A stretch of 64,000 bases of DNA from Cutibacterium sp. (GCF_030525615.1 NZ_JAUNEJ010000002.1:1-64000), one strand, 5' to 3'; counted from the stretch's first letter, positions 1 to 18,825 are shown. Numbers and translations are program-made. Notes: a model not told the origin generated them from the letters alone.

Positions 1-2
1 GG

Positions 3-1391
3 TCCGGCAAAACCCCCACAGGAACACCCTCCTGCAAAACCACCCCAACAACCCCTAACCCTCAACGCACACTGGTGAAGATCACTGTGCTGGGCGATTC
101 GTATTCGGCAGGCAACGGCACGCTGAAAGATGGGTATCCGGCTGATGGGTCGTATCGCAGCCCCAAGAATTATGGCTCGGTGTTGACCAAGCAGTTGAAT
201 CAAGAGTTTGGGCCGGATACGACGGTTCAGACGGATGTACGTGCGTGGAGTGGTGCCCACATCATTGACGGAGACCACAACCTCGTCAGCCAGGCTGATT
301 CCATGGATCCACACACCGGAGTGATACTCATGACAGCAGGAGGCAACGACCTCGACTTCGCTGACGTCATCATGAAGTGCTTCCTAGAAAGGGTTTGGGC
401 ATCAACTAAGTGCGACGACTCTGTTGACGCAGCACGCACGAAGCTTGATGCCACAATGGCCGACACGGTGACATTGTTGTCGCATATCCAACATCGGCTG
501 ACGGATCCAGCTCATACCCGTGTTGTCCTGATCGGCTACCCCTACCTTGTCCCCGCAGACCGTGACGTCCTGGGAAGTGACGTACCTTCCACTCAGGTAC
601 GCGCCGCCGAGGATGAATTCCGCGCCAGGCAGGCTGCCACGATCAAGGCCTGGAACACATCTCATGTTCTCCAGGTGACCTACGCCCCTACTACCAGCTT
701 GTTTAACACTCATGAACCTTACCCATTTATTACTTCGCACCAGAACCCGTATCGGTGGATCAACGGCGTTTTCGAAACGGCAGGAAAACGCGGAGACGAC
801 GGGAAAACTTATGCAGATAAAGTATCGGCTTCTTCAGAGTACCGTCCGAATTTTTACCATCCAAATGTGATTGGCCATGAACAGATTGCGGAGATGGTTC
901 ACAATGTGATCCTGTCAGCCAGAGCCGCGACACGAAGCGTGGGCGCGGTGGCTGGTAGTGGGGTTCCCCTCGACCAGTTGGAGACGGTGCCTGGGGTGCG
1001 GATGCGCCCTGACGTAATTGGGCAAAACCTGGTGCGTGCAGGTGAACCCCTCGAGTTAGACGCCTCCTCGTCCTACACCTCGATCGGACGCATTCAGCGT
1101 TGGCAGTGGGACCTTGACGGTGATGAACACTACGAGATTGATAGTGCCACACCTGGAATCACCCGCACCTTAAAGCAGCTGGGAAAGTATCGGGCACACC
1201 TACGCATCACCGATAGCACGGGTAGCAGTGACACTCTCACCTTCCCCATCGAGGTGACCCGTGATGGTGATGGTGTCCCCGATGCCCGGGATAATTGCCC
1301 CACCATCGCTAACCCGGAGCAAGTTGACTCCGACCATAATGGCGTAGGAGACGCCTGCGACACCCACACCACCACGAAGGCACCGAGATGA
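3..1391 (+). CDS. Secreted SGNH/GDSL-type esterase with PKD and thrombospondin type 3 repeat, 5' partial
   Basis: The reading frame is open to the window edge, so the true start and any signal peptide lie upstream. A GTG at 75 gives 438 codons but begins directly at the first catalytic block. Counting from that GTG, the SGNH blocks are GDSYSAGNG (Ser9), GGND (Asn91) and HPNVIGH (His262), which predict a serine esterase or lipase. A PKD-like beta domain follows at about 305-397, then an Asp-rich [13 protein letters not shown] segment and a second [12 protein letters not shown] element, the calcium-binding thrombospondin type 3 pattern. The stretch before the GTG is rich in Thr and Pro, like a linker. 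No LPXTG motif or C-terminal membrane segment is present, so release or non-covalent wall binding is inferred. The stop overlaps the next start as ATGA. The substrate cannot be told. Confidence 0.8.
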
Positions 1392-1945
1392 CCACCCACA
1401 ACAGCACAACCAGGAAGCAGTACCGTCGCGCACCCCTCAACGGCCTCATCATCGGTGCCATCGTCGGATTTGTCTGGCCTACGGTATTCGCGATACTTCA
1501 TGTGCGTGAAACGCAGGTTATCCCTTCCGAGGAGTACCCCGCCATATTCACCATGTCGTTCATTTTCCCTCTAATTGGGTGGCTCACAGGCTTATGGGAA
1601 CAGAAGACGTACGCGTGCGATGACCCGAAGAAACGGATACTCAAAACCCAAATCATAGGTGTTGTCATGGCGACTTTTGCTAACATTCTCATGTTCTCGA
1701 CTAAATTGATTTTTGAACGCCAGGACATTCTCTTATACATAAAGGCAGCAGTACACCCGTTTTCGTTATTAGTGTTTCCTTGTGCCGGGCTGATCCTCAG
1801 TGATATCGGAATCAGACTCAAGAACAGTAAAGCCCCTTTCATTCTTAGTATGAGCATTGCTTCAGTGGTCATACTTTTCATAGCCGCGGTGGTATGGTAT
1901 GACGTTTTCTTGACTGTGGCAATGTTCTTATCCTTTCATTCTTGA
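1388..1945 (+). CDS. Small multi-pass membrane protein, tandem paralogue copy 1
   Basis: This is a 185-residue protein with a basic, polar N-terminus ([14 protein letters not shown]) followed by about five hydrophobic segments, near residues 20-38, 50-66, 84-105, 118-140 and 152-178. It is probably an integral inner-membrane protein. I do not recognise the family. The start codon overlaps the esterase stop (ATGA), so it is translated with that gene. The next gene is clearly a paralogue: the first 25 codons are almost identical at DNA level and the rest is diverged but has the same hydrophobic pattern. The gene looks more AT-rich than the housekeeping genes further on, which fits an accessory island. 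Function unknown. Confidence 0.65.
1393..1463 (+). repeat. 71-bp perfect direct repeat, copy A (paralogue 5' ends)
   Basis: The 71 bases are identical to 2143-2213. They cover codons 2-25 of the two membrane paralogues, while the rest of the two genes has diverged widely. This suggests a recent duplication or gene conversion limited to the 5' end. Confidence 0.85.
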
Positions 1946-2134
1946 TCCTCTACACTGTTTCGGTGAGATGTGTCGGTGGATGCGGCCTCGCGGGTAAGAT
2001 TCTTAACGGCGACACTAGTTTCAGGGAGTTCTTCTTGCCACAGTGACCACAGTGCTCCTATTACCAGACATCCGCTCAGTAAGCAGCGAGATCCAGACCA
2101 AGACTTAACACCGCCAGCCCCTCTAGGAAAGACA

Positions 2135-2716
2135 ATGATGGTCACCCACAACAGCACAACCAGGAAGCAGTACCGTCGCGCACCCCTCAACGGCCTCATC
2201 ATCGGTGCCATCGCTGGCGTGCTCTGGACGATTGAGTTTTTACTACCTTTCTTGTTTCCGATGGGCGGGTATTCGCGGAACATCAAGATGGCTTTTATTG
2301 CCCTGACGCTACCTGGACTTGGATGGATAACCGGCTTATGGGGCAGAACAGCCTACGTCTGCACAACTCCAGAGAAAAAGAAACGCAAAGTCAAGACGGT
2401 CGGCATTGTCATGGCAACCACGTTCGGGGTACTTATGTCAGTCACTTATTATACTCTTGTTGCGGACACCCGGACTTTTGCCATACCACATAATGACGCC
2501 CTTAGCGGCAAGGCTTTTGTTATGCTTATAGCCCCTCTATTCGTGTTTCCCATTACCGGATGGTCGCTCAGTATTGCTAGGCTCAATACTCCGAGTGATC
2601 GTCACTCGGTAATCCCAAAAATGAGTGCCTGGATCGCTCTCGGTCTGTACCTTTCCACAGCAGCCTGGTTCGCGGTTAGCTGGTTTTTAAGTATATTATT
2701 CTATTTCGAGTTTTAA
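2135..2716 (+). CDS. Small multi-pass membrane protein, tandem paralogue copy 2
   Basis: The frame can be extended up to 1970, but an AGGAAAG ribosome binding site just before tandem ATG codons at 2135 and 2138, and the match to the N-terminus of copy 1, fix the start here (about 193 residues). The protein begins [17 protein letters not shown] and has about five predicted membrane segments. Its C-terminal part (IPHNDALSGKAF, then SVIPKMSAW) aligns with the protein at 3052-3315, showing a family of at least three members. The 190-bp spacer from copy 1 gives it its own leader. No recognised family; the role is unknown. Confidence 0.65.
   Translation: MMVTHNSTTRKQYRRAPLNGLIIGAIAGVLWTIEFLLPFLFPMGGYSRNIKMAFIALTLPGLGWITGLWGRTAYVCTTPEKKKRKVKTVGIVMATTFGVLMSVTYYTLVADTRTFAIPHNDALSGKAFVMLIAPLFVFPITGWSLSIARLNTPSDRHSVIPKMSAWIALGLYLSTAAWFAVSWFLSILFYFEF
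2143..2213 (+). repeat. 71-bp perfect direct repeat, copy B
   Basis: Identical to 1393-1463. A degraded version of part of the same segment is visible at about 2810-2850, encoding QYRHAPRNSLII against [12 protein letters not shown]. Confidence 0.85.
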
Positions 2717-2788
2717 AGAAACCCTCGAAATGCGCTAGTTTTCCAACGCCAAGACACACCAAATCCCAACAATGCGGAGAACGGATAC

Positions 2789-3315
2789 ACCGCCCATGCA
2801 ACACCTTCTCAGTACCGTCACGCACCTCGTAACAGCCTCATCATCGAGGTTGTCTGGGTGCTCGCGTTCCTGCTGCTCGGCTGCTCGGCATGATGATGAC
2901 GACTGACTTTCCACAATGGGGAAGGATGACCTTCATCGGATTGTTGTTTTCCCTCGGTGGATAGCTTGATAGCCTGTGTAAATCTGCGATCGACTCGCAC
3001 AGGCCGCTGTCAACACAACAACGTGACATCAAGGTGCTTTAGGCTGCCACAATGACACTGGATTGGATCACCACAGAAATCCTTTTATACCTTTTCATGG
3101 CAACCCAAGGCGCCATGAAGATACCTGATGACGAAGCGTTCAGCGTCAAGGCACGTTTTCTGTACCTATTATTCCTGATCCCGTTCCTCCTCTTTGGCTG
3201 GGCCATCGGTGCCATACGAGCGAACAGTGACGACACAAACCACAGAATCATCCCAGTTATGACCGCCATGACAATCATCCTAATGTCTCTATTCATAGGT
3301 TTTGGTTTTTCCTGA
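2789..3315 (+). pseudogene. Broken third copy of the membrane paralogue
   Basis: Pieces of a third family member lie in order but in different frames. QYRHAPRNSLIIEVVW starts at about 2810 and runs into a stop at about 2891. MTFIGLLFSLGG at about 2927 corresponds to MAFIALTLPGLGW of copy 2 and is followed by stops. The C-terminal third, from IPDDEAFSVKAR to FIGFGFS, is intact inside 3052-3315. The total span of about 525 bp is close to the 580 bp of copy 2, so this reads as a gene decayed by small indels and stops. The flanks of the decayed part hold no other gene. Confidence 0.6.
3052..3315 (+). CDS. Small membrane protein, C-terminal remnant of the third paralogue
   Basis: An 87-codon open frame encoding two hydrophobic segments (residues about 34-54 and 69-86). 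From residue 23 on it lines up with the C-terminal third of the preceding paralogue (IPDDEAF with IPHNDAL, HRIIPVMTA with HSVIPKMSA). The upstream parts of that paralogue are present only as frameshifted fragments, so this is probably the surviving end of a pseudogene and not an independent gene. The ribosome binding site is weak (TTTAGG). It could still be translated as a short membrane protein. Function unknown. Confidence 0.4.
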   Translation: MTLDWITTEILLYLFMATQGAMKIPDDEAFSVKARFLYLLFLIPFLLFGWAIGAIRANSDDTNHRIIPVMTAMTIILMSLFIGFGFS

Positions 3316-3667
3316 GCTTGTATCTTCATACGTTGCTTTTCTTGGCCACCAAAAGCGCACCTGCAGACTAGTAACAGCGAGGAATCACCATCGGACCCAC
3401 GGGGAGCAATCTCGCCCAGCCCCGACGACGCAACTCTTCGGATGGGACCCCGCTAACCGAGAGAACCGGTCTGCAGGGCCGGCGAAGTACGACTCCTTGA
3501 CAGCAACGAATCCCGTCGGGCATATTGAGTCCGCTGACTTTTCAGGCTGTCGAAAGACCAATCTATGAGGATCAGTTGCATGAAGAATCGAACGCTTATA
3601 GGCATAGCACTGACGCTCGTGTGCCTTGTTACCACACCTCCCCTCGTTGGGTGAATCGAAAATCCAG
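3316..3667 (+). other. Intergenic stretch before ABC operon
   Basis: About 350 bases with no convincing long gene. The only item I can point to is the 29-codon hydrophobic open frame at 3565-3654. Longer open frames here, on either strand, have no recognisable domain. Confidence 0.5.
3565..3654 (+). CDS. Possible small secreted or hydrophobic peptide, 29 aa
   Basis: The short frame reads MRISCMKNRTLIGIALTLVC and then nine more residues ending in PPLVG. It has a basic N-terminus and a hydrophobic core typical of a signal peptide, but stops straight after it. It lies directly upstream of an ABC exporter operon. It may be a short exported peptide or the surviving start of a broken secreted protein. 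The ribosome binding site is weak, so the call is tentative. Confidence 0.25.
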   Translation: MRISCMKNRTLIGIALTLVCLVTTPPLVG

Positions 3668-4432
3668 ATGGTAACGCGAATATCCACATCTCCGATGGTG
3701 AACCAGACCCTGAACCTGAGGGGAATTCGTTTCTCCTATTCTCGACGAAACCCCCCGCTTTTTACCGGATTAGATCTGACCCTGGGAAATACCGAAGGCC
3801 CTACCGTCCTCTTAGGACTCAACGGTGCAGGAAAGACCACCTTGCTGCGACTGTGCGCGGGTGAGCTCAAGCCCTCGGCGGGGTCAATCACTGTGGACAC
3901 AGGGGTCGCCCCGCGGTCTGCCGTGTCCTTGATGCCACAGCAGATCACGCCAATTCCTGGTTTCAGGGTCGTTGAGCAGGTGGCATATTCAGCCTGGCTT
4001 GCCGGATGCAGCTCCTCCGAGAGCGAGAAACGAGCGATTACAGCATTGAAGGCGGTCCAGCTAGACGATCACCTGACAGATACGCCCCATCGACTCTCCG
4101 GTGGGCAATTACGCCGAGTTGGTTTAGCCCAAGCTTTGGCGGGCAATCAGCCAATCGTCATGCTCGATGAGCCAACGGCCGGTCTAGACCCGGCACAAAG
4201 GCACGTCTTCCGGGATTTGCTCACTCGCCTCAGCAGTACTCGGAATCTTGTCGTGTCAACTCACGACACTTTTGAGATCGACTCTATGTACACCAGAGTC
4301 GTTGTTCTCGATAGGGGACGCATCGTCTACGATGGCACCACTCATGATTTCCTCGAGCGTGGCGGAAACTCTCCACACGCGGCCGAGGAAGCATTCCTTG
4401 AGGTCGTGGGACGAGCGGGGATGTCGCGATGA
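3668..4432 (+). CDS. ABC transporter ATP-binding protein
   Basis: A single nucleotide-binding domain of about 254 residues. The Walker A motif GLNGAGKTT, the signature LSGGQLRRV and the Walker B motif PIVMLDEPTAG followed by the H-loop STHD are all present, so it should hydrolyse ATP. It energises the two membrane proteins encoded next. The domain begins soon after ATG 3695, which is an alternative start; neither ATG has a strong ribosome binding site. The stop overlaps the next start (ATGA). Resembles ABC-2 export ATPases; the substrate is unknown. Confidence 0.85.
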   Translation: MVTRISTSPMVNQTLNLRGIRFSYSRRNPPLFTGLDLTLGNTEGPTVLLGLNGAGKTTLLRLCAGELKPSAGSITVDTGVAPRSAVSLMPQQITPIPGFRVVEQVAYSAWLAGCSSSESEKRAITALKAVQLDDHLTDTPHRLSGGQLRRVGLAQALAGNQPIVMLDEPTAGLDPAQRHVFRDLLTRLSSTRNLVVSTHDTFEIDSMYTRVVVLDRGRIVYDGTTHDFLERGGNSPHAAEEAFLEVVGRAGMSR

Positions 4433-5640
4433 CGTGGAAACTTCTTCTCCGACGCTCCTATGGCCTTCGCCTGTTACCCCTCATGATTTTGCTGTGGTGC
4501 TACGGGATCTCAGCTTTTCCTTATTTCTCGGTGACGTCTGGCATCGGCCAGTCGGCGATTGTGCTTCACGCATTCATGATGGTGGCAGGGCCTGTGGCTC
4601 TCAGCGCTTGTTTAGAACTTCGAAGGTTCACCGACGGTCAGGTCCTGGCTAAACCGACCGGAAGGTCTCGACTGTGGATCATCCTCCCCTGGTGGTCCTT
4701 AGCTGTCCTTCCATCAGCCCTGGCCGTGGGAGTTTCGGTTCTCATCCCTGCATCTGGAGACCAAGTCATACGCATGGCAGTCATCGGCATCATCTGGATG
4801 CTCGCATGGGGTGTCTTCGGTGCGGTCATCGGGATGTCGTGGCCCCTGGCGTTGTCGGCACCAACCGCGCTCATTCTCCCCTTCATACTCGTCGTGTATG
4901 GCCCAGCGGTTCCCGTGTTGGAACTGAGGTATCTATTTGGCGACTACACCGACTGCTGCAATGTGGGCGAGATGTTGAACCCGAGAGTCCTCACCGCCGG
5001 AATAGCGATGGCGGTCGGGATCCTCATCGTCTCAGTTGTGGCCGGTATTGTCAGAAGCTTTCTCTCACGGAGCATCGTGACCTTGACCTTAATTATTGGA
5101 TTGGTCGCGTCTGCTCTCCTCAGTTTCAACATCGTCAAAGGAGTGGGTCCGTTTCCCGCGGTTCCTCGCACCGGACCGCAAATCTGCCTGAGCGACAAAG
5201 CTCCAACCGTGTGTGCGTGGGAATCACACGATCTTGAGCTGTTCGCCCCCATGATACGAGATGCCGACACGGCATGGCGATCCGCCGGTATTCAGGTTCC
5301 CAAGGAATATAGGCAGGGAACGGGGACGTCAACTCGAGACACTGTGTGGTGGTCGACATCTGAAACAACACTTCCTCACTTGCGCTCCGACACGGTTCTA
5401 AGTGTTGCTTCGGGCTTGGCCGTCGCCCCCTGCCAAGATGGCAATGACGACGTTGACGTCTGGGTTCTCGACATTCAGGAGCGTGTCGTTGCCTGGCTCA
5501 CGAAACACTCGGGCATCGCAATGACGGGTCTTGATTTTTCCCCTGAAACTCACAAATGGCTGACGTCTATGGATCGACTGTCCATTGAGGATCAGGTCAC
5601 CATAGTCGAAGATTATCGATTGCGACTCCGGAAATGCTGA
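4429..5640 (+). CDS. ABC transporter membrane protein with extracytoplasmic C-terminal domain
   Basis: A 403-residue protein with about seven membrane segments in the first 232 residues, then a soluble domain of about 170 residues. The positive loop VRSFLSRS before the last membrane segment puts that loop inside, which by the positive-inside rule places the C-terminal domain outside. That domain has several cysteines. It is coupled by a 4-bp overlap to the ATPase and by overlap to the next membrane gene, so it is the likely permease of this transporter. The outside domain is unusual for a simple ABC-2 permease and may bind the substrate or a partner. I do not recognise the family. Confidence 0.65.
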   Translation: MTWKLLLRRSYGLRLLPLMILLWCYGISAFPYFSVTSGIGQSAIVLHAFMMVAGPVALSACLELRRFTDGQVLAKPTGRSRLWIILPWWSLAVLPSALAVGVSVLIPASGDQVIRMAVIGIIWMLAWGVFGAVIGMSWPLALSAPTALILPFILVVYGPAVPVLELRYLFGDYTDCCNVGEMLNPRVLTAGIAMAVGILIVSVVAGIVRSFLSRSIVTLTLIIGLVASALLSFNIVKGVGPFPAVPRTGPQICLSDKAPTVCAWESHDLELFAPMIRDADTAWRSAGIQVPKEYRQGTGTSTRDTVWWSTSETTLPHLRSDTVLSVASGLAVAPCQDGNDDVDVWVLDIQERVVAWLTKHSGIAMTGLDFSPETHKWLTSMDRLSIEDQVTIVEDYRLRLRKC

Positions 5641-8802: not shown

Positions 8803-11800
8803 ATGGGTTCTAAGGGTGACTTTTTTAGAGCATCCAACATAAAGATAAGACACTATGGAGGGGGTGAAAACTCCCGAAAGATACATCCCGCACGTGGCAT
8901 AGCTGCCATTGCAGCACTCACATTGACATTCAGTTCCGGCATATACGGTATTTCTCAAATCGCGTACGCCGATGTGACGATTACGTCTTCCAGCGACTCG
9001 TGGAAAGCAGCCGCTGATGGCAATCCTGCGACTAATCTAAAAGACGACAAAGTGGCACCTGTTGAGGGTGTAACCAAAGGCACAATACAAAATGACTATG
9101 TGCCGAAAGCTAACACGGCGGTTGCTGAGGTGAAGTGGGACTCATCGAATGTCAAAACTGATCCGAACCCGTTCCAATTCGACATCGCCGTTCTCGTTTC
9201 TCAAGCCTTTGGCAATGGCGATCCAACAGCGAAGATCGACGGCTGGCAGAATGGTCATACCTTCGATACCGGAGACATTCCTGGACTGTTTGACGGTATT
9301 AAGTTCCGCTACGAGTTCGAAAACAGCCAGGCTACCTACTACTACGAAGGTGTCGACTACACCAAGATGTCGCCGCTGGCTACTGGTGTATCGGAACCCA
9401 CCGTCACCATGGGTGATCTTGGGACATGGAGCTTACCGACCACGCTTCAACGGAGTAGCGACCCCCTGTCGCCCGGAATGGAGATCGAGTTTACCTCGAC
9501 GTTCACCCCCAAGGCTGACTACATCGGCCCCACTCCGCCGCTCCCGCTGAATGTCACTGCTAATAAAAAAACCAGTATTATTTCCTTGGCGACAAAAGCA
9601 GCAGAGAAAGCTTACCCTAGTACCTACCATTCCGAGGGTTATCTCGGTGCGGACCAGCAGAATCCAACCAAAGGACCATCGCTGTTTCGACTGCAAAAAA
9701 ATAACGGATCTACCGTCACTTTAAACTATAAGTACGGTATTACGGACCCGAGCGGCGATCCAGACGCAACAGCTGTCCAAGAGCTGAAGAAGGACCATGG
9801 CACCTACAAGATAAATCAGGATACCGGCCAGGTCACCTTTACTCCAGACAAAGACTTCCCCCAAGACAGTTACGGCCAACAGCTGGAAGGCGTACGCATC
9901 GTCAACACAGCGTCAATGGCGCAAGATATCTCTGACGGGGAAATGGGATTTACCCCAGAAATCGAGGCCTACAAGCTTCCGGAAAAAGATGCGCGGCGCA
10001 GTTGGGTAGAGGCATTCTACAAACCCACAGTGAAGGCATTGCATCCTGAGGTGCCCAACCTTGAAGCGTTTGGCAAAATGGGTGGCCCCATCACTCAGAT
10101 CCCTAACCTTTCCCAAGATGGCGGGGACCCAGCGATTGATGTCAGCACTCTCAGCTTCGTGGATGGTGAGAACTCTGAGTACCCCGCGACCCCCGTCACC
10201 ACGAAGAAAGTGGCTGGGGAAGGAACCTGGACGATCGATTCCCGAACAGGTGCCATTACGTTCACCCCAGATAAGGGTTTTGCAGGGCATCCCACGCCGG
10301 TGTGGTACAAAGCCAAAAATGAAGCTGGCGTCGTCACCACAGACGATGGCGATGATGATGACGCCAAATATGGCACCGGAAAGGTGACCTACACCTATTC
10401 TGACGCGTCAGGATTGTATGCGAACACCACAGGCCCCCAAGGGAAGCCGCAGAGTTCGTTCGACAAAGACGCCGATGATGCCGGTTTCGCTAACACAAAG
10501 GCGATGTTCCGCAATATCCCAGACGACTGGTACGGTGGTTTCACCTACAAGCTCCGAGGCGCAGATAAGCAGGGCAAAGTCGTTGTCGACGGCCAGGGAA
10601 CATACACCATTGACCCCAAAACCGGCAAAGTGACGTTCACCCCTGAAGCGACTTTCTATGGAACCGCGAAGAGCGTATATATCGAAATTGCTTCTGGGTA
10701 CACCAACAAAAATAATCAAACCGGTTCTCCCATCGCCATCTATACACCGACCGTGACCAAATCTTCTGTGGTCGTGCGCCCTGAGTTTGCAGCTGGCGCT
10801 TTGGGGAAAGCGATACATTTGACCCCTGATTATGACCAGCCGGACGGTTTGGAGGCGCTGGATATCACGTCGGTCACCTTCTTGAATGACGACGGTTCCC
10901 TGCCGACACAGCCTCTCAAGAAACGTGAAGTCAAGGGGCAAGGCACGTGGACCATTGACGACACCGGTACGTTCACCTTTACGCCCGTTCCGGGATTTGC
11001 TGGAGATCCCGACCCGCAGCTGTACACCGCCAAGAACAAGAGCGGCACCTATGCCTCGGCTGCTGAGGTGGGAGTAGTTTACGGTGGCTTGGTGGCCGTT
11101 CCCTCTACTACGGTTGGCCCTCAAAACACGGTCCAGCACTCGGATGATTCCGGTGCTTCCGACAACGGTGCAACTCGCGATGAGATGTTCCCAGATCTCG
11201 ATCCGGCATGGTTTACGAACAACGGCGGGCCGCTCCAGGTTAAGCTGCTCGACGCCCAAGGTAAACCTACTGATTCAGTGACGGTGGACAAGCAAGGTAC
11301 CTACACGATTGATACCAAGACGGGTCGCGTCACCTTTACGCCGGAATCCAACTATTACGGCAAGGCAAATCCGGTGACTCTTTCCGTCACTGGTTTGAAA
11401 GATGAAAACGGTAAAGAGGTCTCGGTAACCACCACCTATACACCCTTCATCACCAAAGATGGCGGCGTATTGCCTAACGCGTTCCATCAGGCGAAGAAGG
11501 TGGGCGATCCGGATTCCGTTACGCCCAGCTATCAGGATAACGGCTACAATATTGACCCCGCGTCTGCAACCTTCCCAGATGGCAGTCGTACCAAGAAGGT
11601 GGCTGGTGAAGGAACGTGGGAGATTAACCCACAAACGGGTGAGTTTACCTTTACCCCAGAGGTTGGATTCAACCAATCACCCACACCGGTGTCATACGAT
11701 GGTAAGAACAAGGAGACAGGCCTGACAGTCACAGGCGGACAAGTGACGATTGCCTATCCGCAACCGACCGCTATTCCTGCCACCACCTCGGCTGAGCAAG

Positions 11801-14241
11801 GTCTTACTCAGTACTCCACCGATGACGACACGCAAGACGCGGGTCTCGAGCCGCACGAAATGTTCCCCACCGTGCCAGATAAGTGGTATGGCAAGGCAGA
11901 TTCACCGGTGAAGTTCTATCTTCTGGATGGAGACAAACAGGTAGAAACTCTTACTGTGCGTGGCCACGACCAAGATGGCAACGAAATGGAGGCCGGTACC
12001 TATACGATCGATCCCGTATCGGGTATTGTGACTTTCAAGCCAAATCCAGAGTTCTTGGGTACAGCCCCCACTGCTGTTATTACCACAGATGGTCTCAGCT
12101 CTGAGTTGCGCACCCAGTACACGCCATTCTATTTCCCGGCACGCATAGAGCTGCCAAGCGATCGCCAGGTTCAAGATACGCTCGGCGCACCCACCTCATC
12201 GAAGTTTGAGCTCGATGAGTGGAAGACGGAACACTTCACGGTTGACAAAGAAAGCGTGAAGCTTCTGCCAAGCACGAAGACGATCCTGCAGAATGGCAAA
12301 GAAACACCGGTACCAGGAACCGTCTCCGCAGATGGCAAGACGCTCACCGTGCCCGGTGAAGGTACATGGAGAGTAGAGCTGAAAGGCCAAGCTCCGGCCG
12401 CAGGTACTGAGGATACCCGCGAGGTGGTGTTCACATTCACACCGGAGAAAGGCTTCGTGGGGCAGCCCACCGAGCTGAACTATCTGGCGAAGAACAGCAA
12501 CGGTATTGAGGCGAGTATTCCCGGACAGGTTGTGTTTGTGTACCCGAGTGTGGCTACTCAAGACGCTCTAACTACCTCTACACAGGGTGCGGTGCAAAAA
12601 TCATCCGATAAGGATGCGGGAGATTACGGCTTGAGTATTGAGGAAATGTTCCCGAACATCTCCAAGGTTCCTCAAGAATGGAAGCTCGGATTTGAACTCG
12701 ATGGCGCTAAAGACGGCACATTGACGGTGGCTGGCGAAGGAACATACGTTATTGACCCAGCTACCGGTGAGGTGACGTTTACCCCTGAACCTGAATTCGT
12801 GGGCACGGCAAAACCGGTAACGGTGTGGGCAACCTTCGATGGCAAGCGCAGCGATGTCAGTGCCACGTACACTCCCGTGGTGCAAACCTTTGGTACGCCA
12901 AGCTACAAGCAAATTGTGGTTGAGACAGGTGCTACCCAAAAGTCCACCGTCACTGTTCCCAAAGACGCACCTGCGGGGGGCGTGACCTACGCAATTGATG
13001 CGGACTGGCTTAAAAACGAGGCTCCTGAAGGCTGGACGATTACGATCGACAAGGCTACCGGTGAAGTGACTGCTGTCGCGCCGAAAGACGCCGAGAAGAT
13101 GATCGCTTTCGAAGTACCGGTAACGGCTACTTATCAAGGCGGGGCTCAGCGTACTACCAAGGCACCATTTAGCCCGCTCTCCGACACACAGTTTATCGAC
13201 TACAATGTGGAGATCGAATACGATGACACGTTACCTCCAGGCTCTATTGAGACCGATCAAGACGGCGAGATCGGGGAAAAGGTAAAAGTTGATGGCAAGT
13301 GGCAGATAACAAAAGAACCCAAGCCACATAAGATTCGGGTCTCTTCGCAGATCACACCAGGAGATCAAGAATATAGTTGGACGAAGCCCATTCCGTATGA
13401 GGCTGAATACCGCTACAACCCGGATCTCAAACCAGGCGAGGTCAGAGTAGTTCAAAAGGGTCAGCCCGGCGAGGAAGCCTATAACGTCACCATAACTGTT
13501 GACGAGCATGGCAAGATTTCACTTTCTGAGCCTGAGCATAAAACTACACGGCAAGCCGTCAAGGAGATTTTTGAGGTCGGCCCCGATGTTGAATCGACCA
13601 AACAATCTACCAAGCGTCTCGACATTCCTTACTCCACGAAGATCATCTTTGATCCGGCTCTTCGCCCTGGCCAAATAGTGGTCGACCAAGAAGGTCAGGA
13701 TGGCTTGCGTGAGGTAAGCACGAGCGTCACATACAAAGACGGCACTTTAAGTGATCCCGACATCACCGAAAAGGTACTCAAAGAACCTGTGGAACGCATT
13801 GTACGTGTGGGCGGTGAGCGTCCGCTAAACGATGAAGTGAAGGTCGAAGCTTTCACCACTCGTTTTGTGTACGATGAAAGCCTTGACCCAGGCGAAACCC
13901 GCATCGATCAGCAGGGTAAAGATACCGTGATGCAGTTCGTGGGCAACAAAGACGGTGGCGGCAAATGGGTAACCCTCGTCAAAGGGAACGATCAGGTTGT
14001 ACGCGTGGGCACTAAGGAAAAGCCGTGCATATGCGATCACCCTGGCAGCTCCGATACGCACGATGGCGGCGTTCCTGCCGGTAGGACAAATCCTGCCGGA
14101 AACGCGGGTTCTGGCAGTTCAGATGTACCTCAAGCATTGCCACGTACAGGTTCCAGTCAAGCACGCGGGTTCGGCATATTTGCAGTCTCGCTTATTGGGC
14201 TAGGAGGATTGCTCATGCTATGGCACCGCAAGGATGCCTGA
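8803..14241 (+). CDS. Very large LPXTG-anchored fibrillar adhesin (CshA-type repeats, Rib-like and G5 domains)
   Basis: An 1812-residue surface protein. The signal peptide has a long N-region and ends near YA/D (cleavage after about Ala56). A unique N-terminal region of about 270 residues follows. From about 330 to 1345 come nine CshA-type fibril repeats of the form GTYTID..TG.VTFTP, alternating between a GTW..GF.G.P..Y.AKN form and a GTY..F.GTA form. A Rib/YPDG-like domain lies at about 1365-1456 (GWTITIDKATGEV). Four G5-type domains follow at about 1460-1740 (motifs such as LKPGEV, then QPGE). LPRTG is at 1779-1783, then a hydrophobic stretch and WHRKDA tail for sortase anchoring. It is expected to form a stalk on the cell wall for adhesion or biofilm. 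The ribosome binding site is modest (AGGCGG). The mRNA ends at a strong terminator, so it is monocistronic. Confidence 0.92.
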   Translation: MGSKGDFFRASNIKIRHYGGGENSRKIHPARGIAAIAALTLTFSSGIYGISQIAYADVTITSSSDSWKAAADGNPATNLKDDKVAPVEGVTKGTIQNDYVPKANTAVAEVKWDSSNVKTDPNPFQFDIAVLVSQAFGNGDPTAKIDGWQNGHTFDTGDIPGLFDGIKFRYEFENSQATYYYEGVDYTKMSPLATGVSEPTVTMGDLGTWSLPTTLQRSSDPLSPGMEIEFTSTFTPKADYIGPTPPLPLNVTANKKTSIISLATKAAEKAYPSTYHSEGYLGADQQNPTKGPSLFRLQKNNGSTVTLNYKYGITDPSGDPDATAVQELKKDHGTYKINQDTGQVTFTPDKDFPQDSYGQQLEGVRIVNTASMAQDISDGEMGFTPEIEAYKLPEKDARRSWVEAFYKPTVKALHPEVPNLEAFGKMGGPITQIPNLSQDGGDPAIDVSTLSFVDGENSEYPATPVTTKKVAGEGTWTIDSRTGAITFTPDKGFAGHPTPVWYKAKNEAGVVTTDDGDDDDAKYGTGKVTYTYSDASGLYANTTGPQGKPQSSFDKDADDAGFANTKAMFRNIPDDWYGGFTYKLRGADKQGKVVVDGQGTYTIDPKTGKVTFTPEATFYGTAKSVYIEIASGYTNKNNQTGSPIAIYTPTVTKSSVVVRPEFAAGALGKAIHLTPDYDQPDGLEALDITSVTFLNDDGSLPTQPLKKREVKGQGTWTIDDTGTFTFTPVPGFAGDPDPQLYTAKNKSGTYASAAEVGVVYGGLVAVPSTTVGPQNTVQHSDDSGASDNGATRDEMFPDLDPAWFTNNGGPLQVKLLDAQGKPTDSVTVDKQGTYTIDTKTGRVTFTPESNYYGKANPVTLSVTGLKDENGKEVSVTTTYTPFITKDGGVLPNAFHQAKKVGDPDSVTPSYQDNGYNIDPASATFPDGSRTKKVAGEGTWEINPQTGEFTFTPEVGFNQSPTPVSYDGKNKETGLTVTGGQVTIAYPQPTAIPATTSAEQGLTQYSTDDDTQDAGLEPHEMFPTVPDKWYGKADSPVKFYLLDGDKQVETLTVRGHDQDGNEMEAGTYTIDPVSGIVTFKPNPEFLGTAPTAVITTDGLSSELRTQYTPFYFPARIELPSDRQVQDTLGAPTSSKFELDEWKTEHFTVDKESVKLLPSTKTILQNGKETPVPGTVSADGKTLTVPGEGTWRVELKGQAPAAGTEDTREVVFTFTPEKGFVGQPTELNYLAKNSNGIEASIPGQVVFVYPSVATQDALTTSTQGAVQKSSDKDAGDYGLSIEEMFPNISKVPQEWKLGFELDGAKDGTLTVAGEGTYVIDPATGEVTFTPEPEFVGTAKPVTVWATFDGKRSDVSATYTPVVQTFGTPSYKQIVVETGATQKSTVTVPKDAPAGGVTYAIDADWLKNEAPEGWTITIDKATGEVTAVAPKDAEKMIAFEVPVTATYQGGAQRTTKAPFSPLSDTQFIDYNVEIEYDDTLPPGSIETDQDGEIGEKVKVDGKWQITKEPKPHKIRVSSQITPGDQEYSWTKPIPYEAEYRYNPDLKPGEVRVVQKGQPGEEAYNVTITVDEHGKISLSEPEHKTTRQAVKEIFEVGPDVESTKQSTKRLDIPYSTKIIFDPALRPGQIVVDQEGQDGLREVSTSVTYKDGTLSDPDITEKVLKEPVERIVRVGGERPLNDEVKVEAFTTRFVYDESLDPGETRIDQQGKDTVMQFVGNKDGGGKWVTLVKGNDQVVRVGTKEKPCICDHPGSSDTHDGGVPAGRTNPAGNAGSGSSDVPQALPRTGSSQARGFGIFAVSLIGLGGLLMLWHRKDA

Positions 14242-14303: not shown

Positions 14304-14355
14304 ACGGTGGCCGGAAGTTTGCATCGACATGCATTCTCCCGGCCACCGTTTCTTG
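14304..14355 (+). terminator. Rho-independent terminator of the adhesin gene
   Basis: ACGGTGGCCGG at 14304-14314 pairs perfectly with CCGGCCACCGT at 14339-14349, and TTTCTTGTT follows. The loop contains a small inner dyad (GCAT...ATGC). Confidence 0.8.
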
Positions 14356-14595
14356 TTGCTCATCGCAAACGATGGGCGTAGATGGGGCGTGAATCAGTCG
14401 GTTTCCGGCAGCGACCCTGACGTCATGCGCAGCTACACCTGTAGCCGGTCGGCACAACCTCAACCACTACCTCAACGCCGCCACGCCATCAACAACCCAC
14501 CCGCTCAACTGCGAAGGCTCGGTTAACCCCTCACTTTCAAAAATCGGATTATTTTGCGAATAATGAACTATTCCTATTCTTTTTTAGCACCGAAT

Positions 14596-14674: not shown

Positions 14675-14926
14675 ATGTTACATATGTCCGAATCACACGT
14701 CCTCGCCTTACAGTCCACATCTGAGATCCTCAAGAACAAGTTCGATTCTGCTCTCGTGCGCCACGACGCATGGTTTGTTGTCTTCGTCGCTGTGATAATT
14801 GGGCTGGGAGCAACCCTCCTTGCCGGAATGGCCCTCTGGTGCGTCGCCTACCAGCACGGGAAGTTCACCGGTCACTGGAAGTGGGTGAAATACGGGGTTT
14901 CGGTATCCATGGAGTGTGTGCGCTGA
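14675..14926 (+). CDS. Small single-span membrane peptide, possible bacteriocin-like precursor or transporter partner
   Basis: An 83-residue protein. A good AAGGA ribosome binding site sits five bases before the ATG at 14675; a second ATG at 14684 is too far. Residues 1-31 are polar and mixed-charge, leader-like. Residues about 33-58 are one hydrophobic span with Gly and Ala (IIGLGATLLAGMALW). The tail is short, aromatic and basic (HWKWVKYG), with Cys56 and Cys81. The stop overlaps the ABC ATPase start as TGATG. Small leader-plus-hydrophobic peptides next to a dedicated ABC exporter and a membrane peptidase suggest an exported peptide. It could equally be a small transporter subunit. No family was recognised. 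Confidence 0.55.
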   Translation: MLHMSESHVLALQSTSEILKNKFDSALVRHDAWFVVFVAVIIGLGATLLAGMALWCVAYQHGKFTGHWKWVKYGVSVSMECVR

Positions 14927-15762
14927 TGGCTTCATTCCACAAAGCCGACCGGCTCCCCTCCTCGCGAGGGGGGCCGGCACCCGCGACCACAGCGCTGTCC
15001 ACGGGGCAGTGTGACCGGCGTGAGACCGTCATTGATGTCAAGAACCTGGATTTTCAGTACGCCGATCGACCTATCCTTAACCATCTCGACATCTCGGTGC
15101 CCCGCAGCTCCTGTCTTGCGGTCATCGGACCGAATGGATCGGGGAAATCCACTTTGTGCAAGATTCTGCAGGGAATCCTTACAGCCCCGAGGACCGCGAC
15201 AACCCGTGTTCTGGGGCACCCGTGCGGCTCCCGGGAAGCGTGCCGCGCGATCTCTTACTGCGCCGACAACGACCACCTGCCGCAATTCCTCACCGGGGCG
15301 GAGTTCATCTCGTACGCCCTGTCCCTGAGGTCCCCGTCTCCCCTGGACAACGGGCGGCTGCGAGAAACGATCGCTGACATTTTTGAGCGTCTGGGAATGG
15401 CAGGTCGTCATGTCGACCTCATGGAGAGCTACTCGCACGGAATGCTCAAGAAGACCCAGATCGCCGCAGCCCTCCTCGCACGCACCCCTGTCATCATCAT
15501 CGACGAGTCCCTCAACGGCATCGACATCGAAGCCCAGATGACGATTGAACGTGCGCTATCCGACCACATCAAGCAGGGGGGAAGCCAGATCATCTGCAGC
15601 CACGACTTCGCCATGCTGGACCGCTGCGCAACCCATGTCGCCATGCTCGACTACGGTAACCTCGTCGAGTTCTCCAGCGTCGAGCAGTTACGTGCCCGCC
15701 ATGCGACGATCCGCGATCTCATCGTCGGATACATGGGCCTGGAAGATCATGACGATGCCTAA
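14926..15762 (+). CDS. ABC transporter ATP-binding protein
   Basis: A 278-residue ATPase. The frame is open further upstream, but the ATG at 14926 overlaps the stop of the small peptide gene and gives a sensible N-terminus. Walker A is GPNGSGKST, the signature is the YSHGMLKKTQ form typical of ABC-2/NatA- and BcrA-like exporters, and Walker B is PVIIIDESLNG followed by SHD. An N-terminal extension of about 35 polar residues precedes the domain. It is translationally coupled to both neighbours and should power the 504-residue permease encoded next. Confidence 0.85.
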   Translation: MASFHKADRLPSSRGGPAPATTALSTGQCDRRETVIDVKNLDFQYADRPILNHLDISVPRSSCLAVIGPNGSGKSTLCKILQGILTAPRTATTRVLGHPCGSREACRAISYCADNDHLPQFLTGAEFISYALSLRSPSPLDNGRLRETIADIFERLGMAGRHVDLMESYSHGMLKKTQIAAALLARTPVIIIDESLNGIDIEAQMTIERALSDHIKQGGSQIICSHDFAMLDRCATHVAMLDYGNLVEFSSVEQLRARHATIRDLIVGYMGLEDHDDA

Positions 15763-17263
15763 CACCCAGATAGCTGGGTCGCAGGGCAACCTGCCCACCC
15801 ACCACCGACTACAGACAAGTCCTGGCACCGTCGGGCCGAAAGATGTCTGCAGAAACCTCACGCGGACCTTGACCATCGTACGTCTCATGGGCGACTACCT
15901 AGTGCGGGTCGTGGTAGGAAAAGGGGTCCTCAAGTCACGCGCAGCTCGTCTCGGCGTCCTCGTATGCGTCATCCTGTTCCTCATCACCACGACTGCTCTG
16001 GCCACCTTTCTTACGCACGGCTTCGGCGGTGACGAATCCGTCCTGGACCTCGTCGTGACAGTCAACTCGTTGTCGTCGGTGTTGTGGACCGCAGTTGCCT
16101 TCCTCATCGTCAAGGTACTTATGGCTGACGCCGGCACCATGATGGCCATCACACACAACTTTCCCGTCACGAACCGGGAGCGCCAGCGTGCCGTGAGCGT
16201 CCTCGACGCAGCGACCACCCTGCTCCTCGTCGTCATCGGAATGTTCGCCACCAGCACCTCTACCCTGGTGAACTTCGGTGTTTCCGTCTTGCCCGGATTC
16301 ATGACGTGCGTGGTCATGCCGGCGATGGCGACATACACGGTCCTTGAATACGCCCAGCGGTGCTGCGATCTGGCCCTCGCGCACACCCCGTTACGCCATG
16401 CCAGACAGCCGCTTCTCGCCGTGGTGGTGTTTTTTGTCGTGCTTGCCTTGTGGCGCGCAACGCCCTCGCTGCTGTCCGCGATCACCTCTTCACCACAGCC
16501 GTTCGCGGTCTGGACCCTTCTTTTTCATGACATTCATCTTCGGTGCGGCACTGCGGCGACGATAGGCTCCTTCGCCTTTCTACTCATACTGAGTCTGTTG
16601 CCAATCACGGTGCTGCCGACATCACCGCTAGAGGTCCGGCGTCGATTTGTGAAGCTCTCAGTTGTCGACCTCAGCCATCGCTTCAATCGTTTGGCACCTC
16701 AGTTCCGCGCCCTGTTTCGCAGCCGCTACAGCGTCCAGGCGGCCATCCTTTCGCTGGGATTCGTCGTGCTGTTGGCGACTCGTGTCGCCGGTCCGTCATC
16801 GGTGTGGGGCGTGGAGCCCATGACCATTGGAGGCTTCTTCCAGTACGCCACCCTCGCCCCGACGTTTCGCGCTCTTGAGCCGCGTCTTTCTGCCTCCCGC
16901 TTCTACCTCAGACTGATCGTGGCACTGGGCTTCTTCATGTTCCCCATGCTTGTGGTGGCCGTGGTGATCGACGTGATCGCCGGCCAGCCACTCGTATCGA
17001 CGGTAATCGCCGCTGCCGGGGTGTGCGGATCGGCTCTGGTCACGACGGGTGTTGGGATCTTCGTCCCAGCACGCGACGACAATCCGCTGTCGATCCTGCT
17101 CGGGGGTGCGATCGTCCTCATTATCGCGACGGTGCTCATCGTCTTCTGCGGGATTCTCCGTCTCCCCAACGCGATAACCATCGTGCTGGGCATTCTCACC
17201 GCAATTCTCCTCATTATCCACAGCATTCTCACCATTGCCGATCATCGAAAGGCTGCCCGATGA
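15749..17263 (+). CDS. Large ABC-type permease
   Basis: A protein of about 504 residues with roughly twelve predicted membrane segments after a polar N-terminus of about 50 residues. The open frame extends further upstream but lies inside the ATPase gene. The ATG at 15749 (or 15755) gives a short overlap with that gene. The basic loops and paired hydrophobic segments fit an ABC-2 export permease with two fused halves. It overlaps the following membrane gene by ATGA. The substrate is unknown; the neighbouring small peptide is a candidate. Confidence 0.65.
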   Translation: MTMPNTQIAGSQGNLPTHHRLQTSPGTVGPKDVCRNLTRTLTIVRLMGDYLVRVVVGKGVLKSRAARLGVLVCVILFLITTTALATFLTHGFGGDESVLDLVVTVNSLSSVLWTAVAFLIVKVLMADAGTMMAITHNFPVTNRERQRAVSVLDAATTLLLVVIGMFATSTSTLVNFGVSVLPGFMTCVVMPAMATYTVLEYAQRCCDLALAHTPLRHARQPLLAVVVFFVVLALWRATPSLLSAITSSPQPFAVWTLLFHDIHLRCGTAATIGSFAFLLILSLLPITVLPTSPLEVRRRFVKLSVVDLSHRFNRLAPQFRALFRSRYSVQAAILSLGFVVLLATRVAGPSSVWGVEPMTIGGFFQYATLAPTFRALEPRLSASRFYLRLIVALGFFMFPMLVVAVVIDVIAGQPLVSTVIAAAGVCGSALVTTGVGIFVPARDDNPLSILLGGAIVLIIATVLIVFCGILRLPNAITIVLGILTAILLIIHSILTIADHRKAAR

Positions 17264-17565
17264 AAAACCTCAAGGTGTACCTGACAAGTCTCGTCATTTC
17301 GATCATTGCGACACTGGCCTTAGCGGTCGGCACCATCCTCGTCCTCATGTTCTCGGTGCATGAGGAGTCGGCCTACCGCACCGGCCTGTTTGGCTCGGTG
17401 TACTTCCGAGCTTCCCCCAATGCACAGGGAAACGTTGATGCGACGATGGGTGTAGCTTCCCTACCCAGGCTGGGCATTGTCACAGCCGTGATCTTCGTCT
17501 TCACCCTCGTCGTCTCATTCATCTACCTGCGTCTCAAGGCCTATCGTGCGACACTCATCCAGTGA
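17260..17565 (+). CDS. Small two-span membrane protein of the cassette
   Basis: A 101-residue protein with two hydrophobic segments (about residues 8-31 and 70-92) joined by a polar outer loop. The start overlaps the permease stop (ATGA), and the next gene begins before its stop, so it belongs to the operon. Small membrane proteins in such clusters often serve as immunity or accessory export proteins; that is inference only. No family recognised. Confidence 0.6.
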   Translation: MKNLKVYLTSLVISIIATLALAVGTILVLMFSVHEESAYRTGLFGSVYFRASPNAQGNVDATMGVASLPRLGIVTAVIFVFTLVVSFIYLRLKAYRATLIQ

Positions 17566-18085
17566 GTCTGCGTGGTGGTGCGCTCCTCGACACCTGAGTC
17601 TGCGGCCACTACTGAACCACGTCGTTATCACTGGATGTGTCCCGGCAGCCATCCTCGTCCTCGGATGGGCTGTCTGCGCGGCCAGCGGTTCCGACACATC
17701 ACTGTTCGTGAAACTACTGGCAATTTTGGTGTTGGGAGGCATGGGTTCCTACTTCCTCCATGAGTTCTGCCATTGGCTGTCGCTGCGTGCGACGAGTCCC
17801 GGCACCTTGGTGCGCTGGGAGATGACGCCATTGCGCATCTCCCTACTCGTCCGCAACACCCCAAGCCCTCGCGCGGCGGCACTCAACGCGGCTGCGGGTC
17901 CGCTGGGTCCGGCTGTTGTGGGTTGCGTCGTCCTACTGATCCGGCCTCTTCTCCCTGCCGCTATGAGCGGTACCGTGCAGGCGATTGGGTGGCTGTGCCT
18001 TGGCCACATCCTCTTCCTCATACCGCCCTCTACTGATGGCCTGACCGTACTGTTCGAATTGACGAAACGAGGTCAGTTGAGCTGA
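17546..18085 (+). CDS. Site-2-protease-like (M50-type) membrane metallopeptidase
   Basis: A 179-residue integral membrane protein. HEFCH at residues 72-76 is an HExxH zinc motif within a hydrophobic segment. AAGPLGP at 116-122 and FLIPPSTDG at 157-165 match the second and third conserved blocks of M50/S2P proteases (aaGPlaN and NLlP..DG), which supply the third zinc ligand. The only suitable start in frame is GTG 17546, which overlaps the previous gene by 20 bp. It closes a five-gene cassette and may cleave the cassette's small peptide within the membrane. Similar proteases occur in yydFGHIJ-type peptide clusters. The substrate is inference. Confidence 0.65.
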   Translation: MRHSSSESAWWCAPRHLSLRPLLNHVVITGCVPAAILVLGWAVCAASGSDTSLFVKLLAILVLGGMGSYFLHEFCHWLSLRATSPGTLVRWEMTPLRISLLVRNTPSPRAAALNAAAGPLGPAVVGCVVLLIRPLLPAAMSGTVQAIGWLCLGHILFLIPPSTDGLTVLFELTKRGQLS

Positions 18086-18258: not shown

Positions 18259-18825
18259 TCACGACGACCACGGAAACCCCGGCTGCTGCTTGGCTCTCAT
18301 CAGGTCGAACCCGATCAATGCGCCAATAATCGCAGCGCGATACTCAGGCGCGGCACCCGGTGTAAAACTCAGCGCGTAAAGATCCCGTTCGATGAACATG
18401 TCCATCACCGAGCCGAAATGCCGCGACGCGGTAGCGAGACCGCCGGCCTCTCCTGCAACCGTGAAGTCTCGCTCCCACAGGTTCCCACGCAGCACCAAGC
18501 TCTCCCCCGAGGCCATGTGTATCGAAACCTTGGGCTTGAATAACGTGATTTCCTGAACCAGCTCGGCGATCTCGGAGCCGTCGGGGCCAACAATCGACAT
18601 TCGGTCGCGTCCCATAGTGACACGATCCACAACCTTGAGCACCAAAGCGCCGTCCAACTCGCAGACATCGAGTTCCCGATTACCCATCACCAGGCGTTTG
18701 AGCAGGTGCCCTACGGTCTTGACCTGTCCTACTGGCTGCCCGTCCGGCCCGAGTATCGAAAAATCGTTGGCAAGGACGGACGCCACCTGCCGCATCAAGA
18801 GTGTGTCGTAGGTAAGCAGCCCCAT
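18259..18825 (-). CDS. LURP-one-related / scramblase-like protein
   Basis: A 188-residue soluble protein whose pattern of short beta strands with FSILGPDGQPVGQV, MSIVGPDGSEIAEL and VAGEAGGLATASR fits the LURP-one-related (tubby-like barrel) family. Bacterial members have no established biochemical role. It ends with a single hydrophobic helix (AAIIGALIGFDLM), common in the family. It is convergent with the preceding cassette and is not in an obvious operon. Confidence 0.7.
   Translation of the reverse strand: MGLLTYDTLLMRQVASVLANDFSILGPDGQPVGQVKTVGHLLKRLVMGNRELDVCELDGALVLKVVDRVTMGRDRMSIVGPDGSEIAELVQEITLFKPKVSIHMASGESLVLRGNLWERDFTVAGEAGGLATASRHFGSVMDMFIERDLYALSFTPGAAPEYRAAIIGALIGFDLMRAKQQPGFPWSS

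Follow-up and report, generated by a model that had tools for sequence, protein, structure and literature searches.

The window, the whole 64,000-nucleotide stretch of Cutibacterium sp. analysed here (GCF_030525615.1 NZ_JAUNEJ010000002.1:1-64000), contains a chromosomal cassette of five genes at 14675-18085 (Table 1). Successive genes overlap by 1, 8, 4 and 20 bases, which confirms the five overlapping genes described in the initial annotation. Also upheld is the reading of the cassette as a single operon in which the precursor of a secreted peptide is encoded together with its own ABC exporter, an accessory membrane protein and a protease of the site-2 type.

Table 1 Features of the window cassette and of related loci, with gene names as assigned in this work
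Feature	Position	Strand	Basis or remark
Inverted repeat and T-rich stretch, probable terminator of upstream gene	14305..14348	.	Read from sequence
tmcA, TMcin precursor, 83 aa (likelier 80 aa)	14675..14926	+	Homology to mature TMcin-G1905
Predicted leader	14675-14767	+	Homology to mature TMcin-G1905
Predicted mature peptide, residues 32-83, 52 aa, AWFVVF...MECVR	14768-14923	+	Homology to mature TMcin-G1905
tmcB, ABC transporter ATPase, 278 aa	14926..15762	+	PF00005 E 1.3e-18; adjoins peptide in nearly all loci
tmcC, membrane permease of exporter, 502 aa	15755..17263	+	Family-profile link to permeases beside tmcA
tmcE, two-helix escort protein, 101 aa	17260..17565	+	Position and length, with two hydrophobic spans, match TMcin clusters
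tmcP, site-2-type intramembrane metalloprotease, 179 aa	17546..18085	+	Invariant residues, 3b4r matches
PqqD-bearing TmcP examples	L054:9446-10354, L050:9545-10438 and other Bacillus/clostridial loci		Small protein after protease, not before
Divergent branch loci	L086:423-4072, L087:75-4098; broken copy in L088		

The gene directly upstream of the cassette (8803-14241) encodes an 1812-residue adhesin that contains nine stretches of CshA repeats as well as G5 domains and carries an LPRTG-type sorting signal at its C terminus. Between it and the cassette lies an inverted repeat with the arms CGGTGGCCGG (14305-14314) and CCGGCCACCG (14339-14348), followed by a T-rich stretch, which is probably the terminator of the adhesin gene; its 24-base loop is beyond the limits of the terminator scan, and the repeat is absent from the scan's list. 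Of the terminator and long AT-rich leader proposed earlier, the inverted repeat is readable, but the AT-richness of the leader is only modest (GC 0.46 versus about 0.60). No promoter above chance level was found upstream of the cassette, a promoter-like match at 14536-14564 being at chance level. The next gene on the 3' side (18259-18825, minus strand) encodes a 188-residue scramblase-domain protein (PF03803, E 4.9e-6) and sits between the cassette and a citE-like gene. A relative of this protein occupies the equivalent place in G003, a species without the cassette.

TMcins are a class of bacteriocins described in 2025, and TMcin-G1905 is a bactericidal, pore-forming peptide that was purified in its secreted form (PMC12328743). 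The roles of the genes were set by mutation in 2026: the leader is cleaved off by TmcP, a step that requires TmcE, and TmcBC secretes the peptide (PMC13252029). Residues 32-83 of the window peptide align with mature TMcin-G1905 of S. aureus without gaps over all 52 residues, 27/52 being identical (E 4e-20), in agreement with the earlier reading of the cassette as a peptide system. The system is not an undescribed one, as had been suggested, since TMcins were published in 2025-26 (PMC12328743, PMC13252029). Cys56 and Cys81 of the window precursor correspond to mature positions 25 and 50, as in TMcin-G1905, and both are invariant in an alignment of 39 sequences. TMcin-G1905 cannot kill without the disulfide that links its two conserved cysteines (PMC13252029). 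In addition, the window peptide keeps Lys32 and Glu49 of TMcin-G1905, which form a salt bridge between adjacent protomers in the pore model (PMC12328743). The pore structure itself has been modelled, with support from conductance and polymer-uptake measurements, CD and MD.

Among the peptide homologues, the leader is variable and the core is conserved. Homology places the predicted cleavage of the window precursor just before Ala32-Trp33. The 83-residue frame given by the initial annotation is present (14675-14926), but the likelier start is ATG 14684, with a product of 80 residues, because 4/4 congeners begin there (MPESQ or MLESQ). The AlphaFold2 model of the peptide (pLDDT 72) contains a leader helix, a helix at residues 32-59 and a hairpin at 63-82 formed by strands 63-71 and 74-82. 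The predicted model thus has the published TMcin architecture of an N-terminal transmembrane helix followed by a two-stranded beta hairpin. The peptide falls into no Pfam or NCBIfam family, has no match in phage and viral collections, and gave no meaningful match to a solved structure, by sequence or by fold.

The last protein carries the three M50 landmarks that had been noted in it, namely HEFCH at residues 72-76, GPLGP from residue 118 and IPPSTDG at 159-165. Residues H72, E73, H76, P160 and D164 are invariant among 38 protease sequences. Against solved structures, the protease profile matches the Methanocaldococcus site-2 protease 3b4r (E 5e-7), and the published TmcP matched the same structure (PMC13252029). 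The AlphaFold2 model of the protease (pLDDT 88) gives Z 10.6 to 3b4r and 10.3 to SpoIVFB, followed by the RseP structures, all above the unrelated rows. By predicted fold and zinc-site residues, TmcP is a site-2-type (M50/S2P) protease with HExxH and a distal Asp, although no Pfam or NCBIfam family matches it. Some relatives of the cassette proteins show weak M50, DUF3267, ABC2 or PqqD matches. In Bacillus and clostridial loci, TmcP bears a PqqD domain, of a peptide-binding kind, at its N terminus (E 4e-6 to 2.5e-14), suggesting that this domain recognises the leader. The PqqD match of the Marininema protease (E 7e-4) is below the curated cut-off, and the C. folliculivorans protease is without PqqD. 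The domain is not mentioned in the text of PMC12328743 or PMC13252029.

The permease is likewise without a Pfam or NCBIfam family, and no solved structure matches it by sequence. Its family profile ties window tmcC to permeases adjoining tmcA in two phyla, that of pHOB2 included, and a Bacillus homologue shows a weak ABC2_membrane_3 match. The tmcE profile has matches in 34 loci, and the window protein has two hydrophobic spans; its putative escort role is taken from PMC13252029.

Judged by sequence, the five window genes map one to one onto tmcA, tmcB, tmcC, tmcE and tmcP, the last four products being assigned via shared loci, motifs and gene order, not direct alignment to published sequences. 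The core operon genes tmcB, tmcC, tmcE and tmcP are all present and overlapping, and the same set occurs in most peptide loci. The TMcin-G1905 cluster on pCT545 of S. aureus has the same five core genes (PMC12328743, PMC13252029). Its mature peptide is also 52 residues long, has its cysteines at positions 25 and 50 and is 52% identical to that of the window, and its protease is of the same class, with HExxH and a distal Asp. The two clusters differ in several respects. tmcA is first in the window but last in the TMcin-G1905 cluster, the window cassette is chromosomal, and its leader has 31 (or 28) residues versus 45. Moreover, no tmcD oxidoreductase, regulator or regulatory gene pair, or separate immunity gene was found beside the window cassette, whereas the TMcin-G1905 cluster contains tmcD and the regulatory pair. 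The DsbA-type tmcD and the regulatory pair are reported mainly in staphylococcal clusters and are not defining elsewhere, and non-staphylococcal clusters have been reported without a local oxidoreductase (PMC13252029). The earlier statement that the cassette holds no modification enzyme is true locally, but the model TMcin does require a disulfide.

A second comparison is provided by plasmid pHOB2 of S. epidermidis 14.1.R1 (L007, NZ_CP018844.1), where positions 1-4654 carry tmcB-C-E-P-A, a thioredoxin-type CPDC protein and a helix-turn-helix gene pair, the full staphylococcal layout. The five core genes are recognised by the same profiles as those of the window, and the peptides share motifs. 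Unlike the window cassette, it is plasmid-borne, has tmcA last and includes the thioredoxin-type gene and the helix-turn-helix pair.

The YydFGHIJ epipeptide system of Bacillus subtilis combines a peptide, an M50 protease and an ABC exporter with the radical-SAM epimerase YydG. It resembles the window cassette in outline, and the initial annotation had drawn this analogy. It was rejected as an identity: TIGR04078 (YydG) has no match in the whole genome, and the conserved cysteine pair and hairpin of the window peptide are TMcin features.

A peptide-profile scan of 84,980 species genomes yielded 51 loci in Actinomycetota and Bacillota. Chance falls far short of explaining the gene set: in 53/60 loci from two phyla the peptide has the ATPase, the permease and the protease as neighbours, a count in which near-identical Bacillus loci are not independent. 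The exceptions are L057, L060 and L038, which are at contig ends, L009 and L019, which are truncated in the protease, L033, which is reduced to the peptide and the small protein, and L008 (Roseburia), with protease and small protein only. The peptide is conserved together with the M50 gene, as the initial annotation had proposed to check, and it is protease-less only in truncated-looking or contig-end loci (L009, L019, L033, L060), an outcome that favours the peptide system over a transporter subunit conserved without the protease. Three arrangements recur: in two of them the peptide leads, combined either with a short protease or with a long protease and a small protein at the end, and in the third the peptide comes last. 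They are consistent with the three reported in PMC12328743, and the window cassette has one of these recurrent orders.

When plasmids were searched in translation with just the peptide as query, similar gene sets appeared in S. epidermidis, Roseburia, Peribacillus and Paraclostridium; the Roseburia plasmid peptide has no ATPase or permease gene directly adjacent, and the Peribacillus copy is truncated. Thioredoxin-type neighbours are encoded in the peptide loci of Roseburia (Thioredoxin/DsbD-like, L008:7119-8627) and Paraclostridium (thioredoxin_4, L010:9678-10088). These proteins are possible makers of the peptide's disulfide, so that staphylococci may not be alone in having a local oxidoreductase. 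Within Propionibacteriaceae, 13/198 genomes match, a few of them weakly, and in an even sample of the phylum the window's own genome is the single match among 396. The cassette occurs in 24/44 species of the genus of B. paralicheniformis, and Metabacillus L042 has two tandem precursor copies.

Within the genus, peptide and protease matches co-occur in the same 5/9 congeneric species. In the other 4/9, the cassette is missing next to citE, and in one of them (G005) the flanking genes are about 70 bases apart. This presence in some congeners with cassette-free sites in the others is the pattern expected of a bacteriocin cassette. Peptide identity among congeners is 78-85%, with dN/dS of about 0.11; the values are 0.10-0.15 for the ATPase, 0.20-0.22 for the permease, 0.06-0.14 for the small protein and 0.23-0.25 for the protease, all to be read as a rough guide only, with synonymous sites nearly saturated. 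The cassette is under purifying selection. In congener G007 (L019:3800-6823), the protease match ends near residue 55, ahead of the zinc site, and tmcA, tmcB, tmcC and tmcE are kept; this natural tmcP-truncated variant could serve for questions of immunity or processing. Upstream of its cassette, congener G002 (L017:2407-2826) holds a piece of another permease copy, beside a masked stretch; this piece may be a remnant of a duplicated cassette or of a neighbouring degraded one.

Taken together, the cassette is very probably a gene cluster for TMcin biosynthesis, ordered tmcA-tmcB-tmcC-tmcE-tmcP, that works by the TMcin mechanism. The TmcA precursor would insert into the producer's membrane via its single helix, and a disulfide would join the cysteines at the ends of the C-terminal hairpin, the oxidant being encoded elsewhere or extracellular. 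TmcP, aided by the two-helix TmcE, would then cut off the leader, and the ABC exporter TmcBC would pull the 52-residue mature peptide out of the membrane. The mature peptide would enter the membranes of rival Gram-positive bacteria and form large beta-barrel pores ringed by its helices. These steps have been shown for TMcin-G1905 only; for the window cassette they are suggested by gene content, homology, conserved residues, selection and fold predictions. Weighing against the cluster reading are the missing tmcD, although TMcin-G1905 needs its disulfide, and the missing regulator and separate immunity gene.

It is unlikely that this TMcin cluster has stopped producing in the present strain and persists for immunity or by chance. 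Loss of the catalytic part of tmcP in G007, with the other four genes retained, and the missing local oxidoreductase would fit such a state, but the five open frames, the intact catalytic and cysteine residues and the purifying selection speak for a working cassette. Less probable still is that the peptide is made in the same way but acts as a signal or a self-directed membrane peptide (e.g. in cannibalism) instead of as a weapon against rivals. Its presence in 24/44 species of the B. paralicheniformis genus is unusually steady for a weapon, and the peptide is more conserved than its protease. However, TMcin-G1905 at 52% identity is bactericidal and pore-forming (PMC12328743), the distribution is patchy elsewhere (1/396 genomes of the phylum sample), and the staphylococcal cassette is on a plasmid.

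The small protein could also be imagined as a structural subunit of the ABC transporter, with the operon serving in membrane stress or detoxification, as the overlapping genes and the single transmembrane helix of the peptide would allow. The membrane-stress responder offered by the initial annotation found no support, and this reading is scarcely credible in view of the variable leader with a conserved core, the tandem precursors in Metabacillus L042, the PqqD domain on the Bacillota protease, the thioredoxin-type neighbours and the direct homology to a purified secreted bacteriocin.

The window cassette thus belongs to an already known class, to which it adds a chromosomal propionibacterial example; this young bacteriocin class (2025) is placed in a propionibacterial genus as a compact five-gene cassette. 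A more tentative proposal, which we hold to be possible but rather doubtful, is that the five genes alone suffice to make, release and survive a TMcin, and that skin cutibacteria with the cassette face staphylococci with TMcin plasmids such as pHOB2. The cassette contains no oxidoreductase, regulator or immunity gene, and self-protection would therefore have to be supplied by TmcE or TmcBC, which are core proteins. If true, this would answer the question of TMcin immunity, and the natural cassette-free sites and the tmcP-truncated variant are useful for locating self-protection. The pHOB2 link, the PqqD fusion, the twin-precursor branch described below and a cassette such as that of the window, lacking local oxidoreductase, regulator and separate immunity gene together, were not found in PMC12328743 or PMC13252029.

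Strain 14.1.R1 is active against P. acnes and one P. granulosum strain; the activity is proteinaceous, is lost when it adsorbs to tubes, appears on agar only and is destroyed at 60 deg C, and a type VII system was tentatively proposed as its source, without genetic proof (PMC4770681, PMC5347227). Neither PMC12328743 nor PMC13252029 calls the pHOB2 cassette a TMcin in its text, and among plasmid records a cassette of high identity was found only in pHOB2 itself. Its TMcin may be the agent of this unexplained activity against C. acnes and other cutibacteria, for which it is a good and concrete candidate. Against this link, 14.1.R1 inhibited cutibacteria only, while TMcin-G1905 acts on a broad range of Gram-positive bacteria.

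A divergent branch was observed in three Propionibacteriaceae genomes. Two of them encode a pair of tandem precursors and, after these, an ATPase, a small membrane protein, a permease and a protease bearing HExxH and SDG motifs; the G534 precursor is interrupted by stop codons. The permease and small protein are too divergent for a significant match. The precursors give weak but reciprocal matches with the TMcin profile (hhalign probability 97), and the branch is possibly a two-peptide TMcin.
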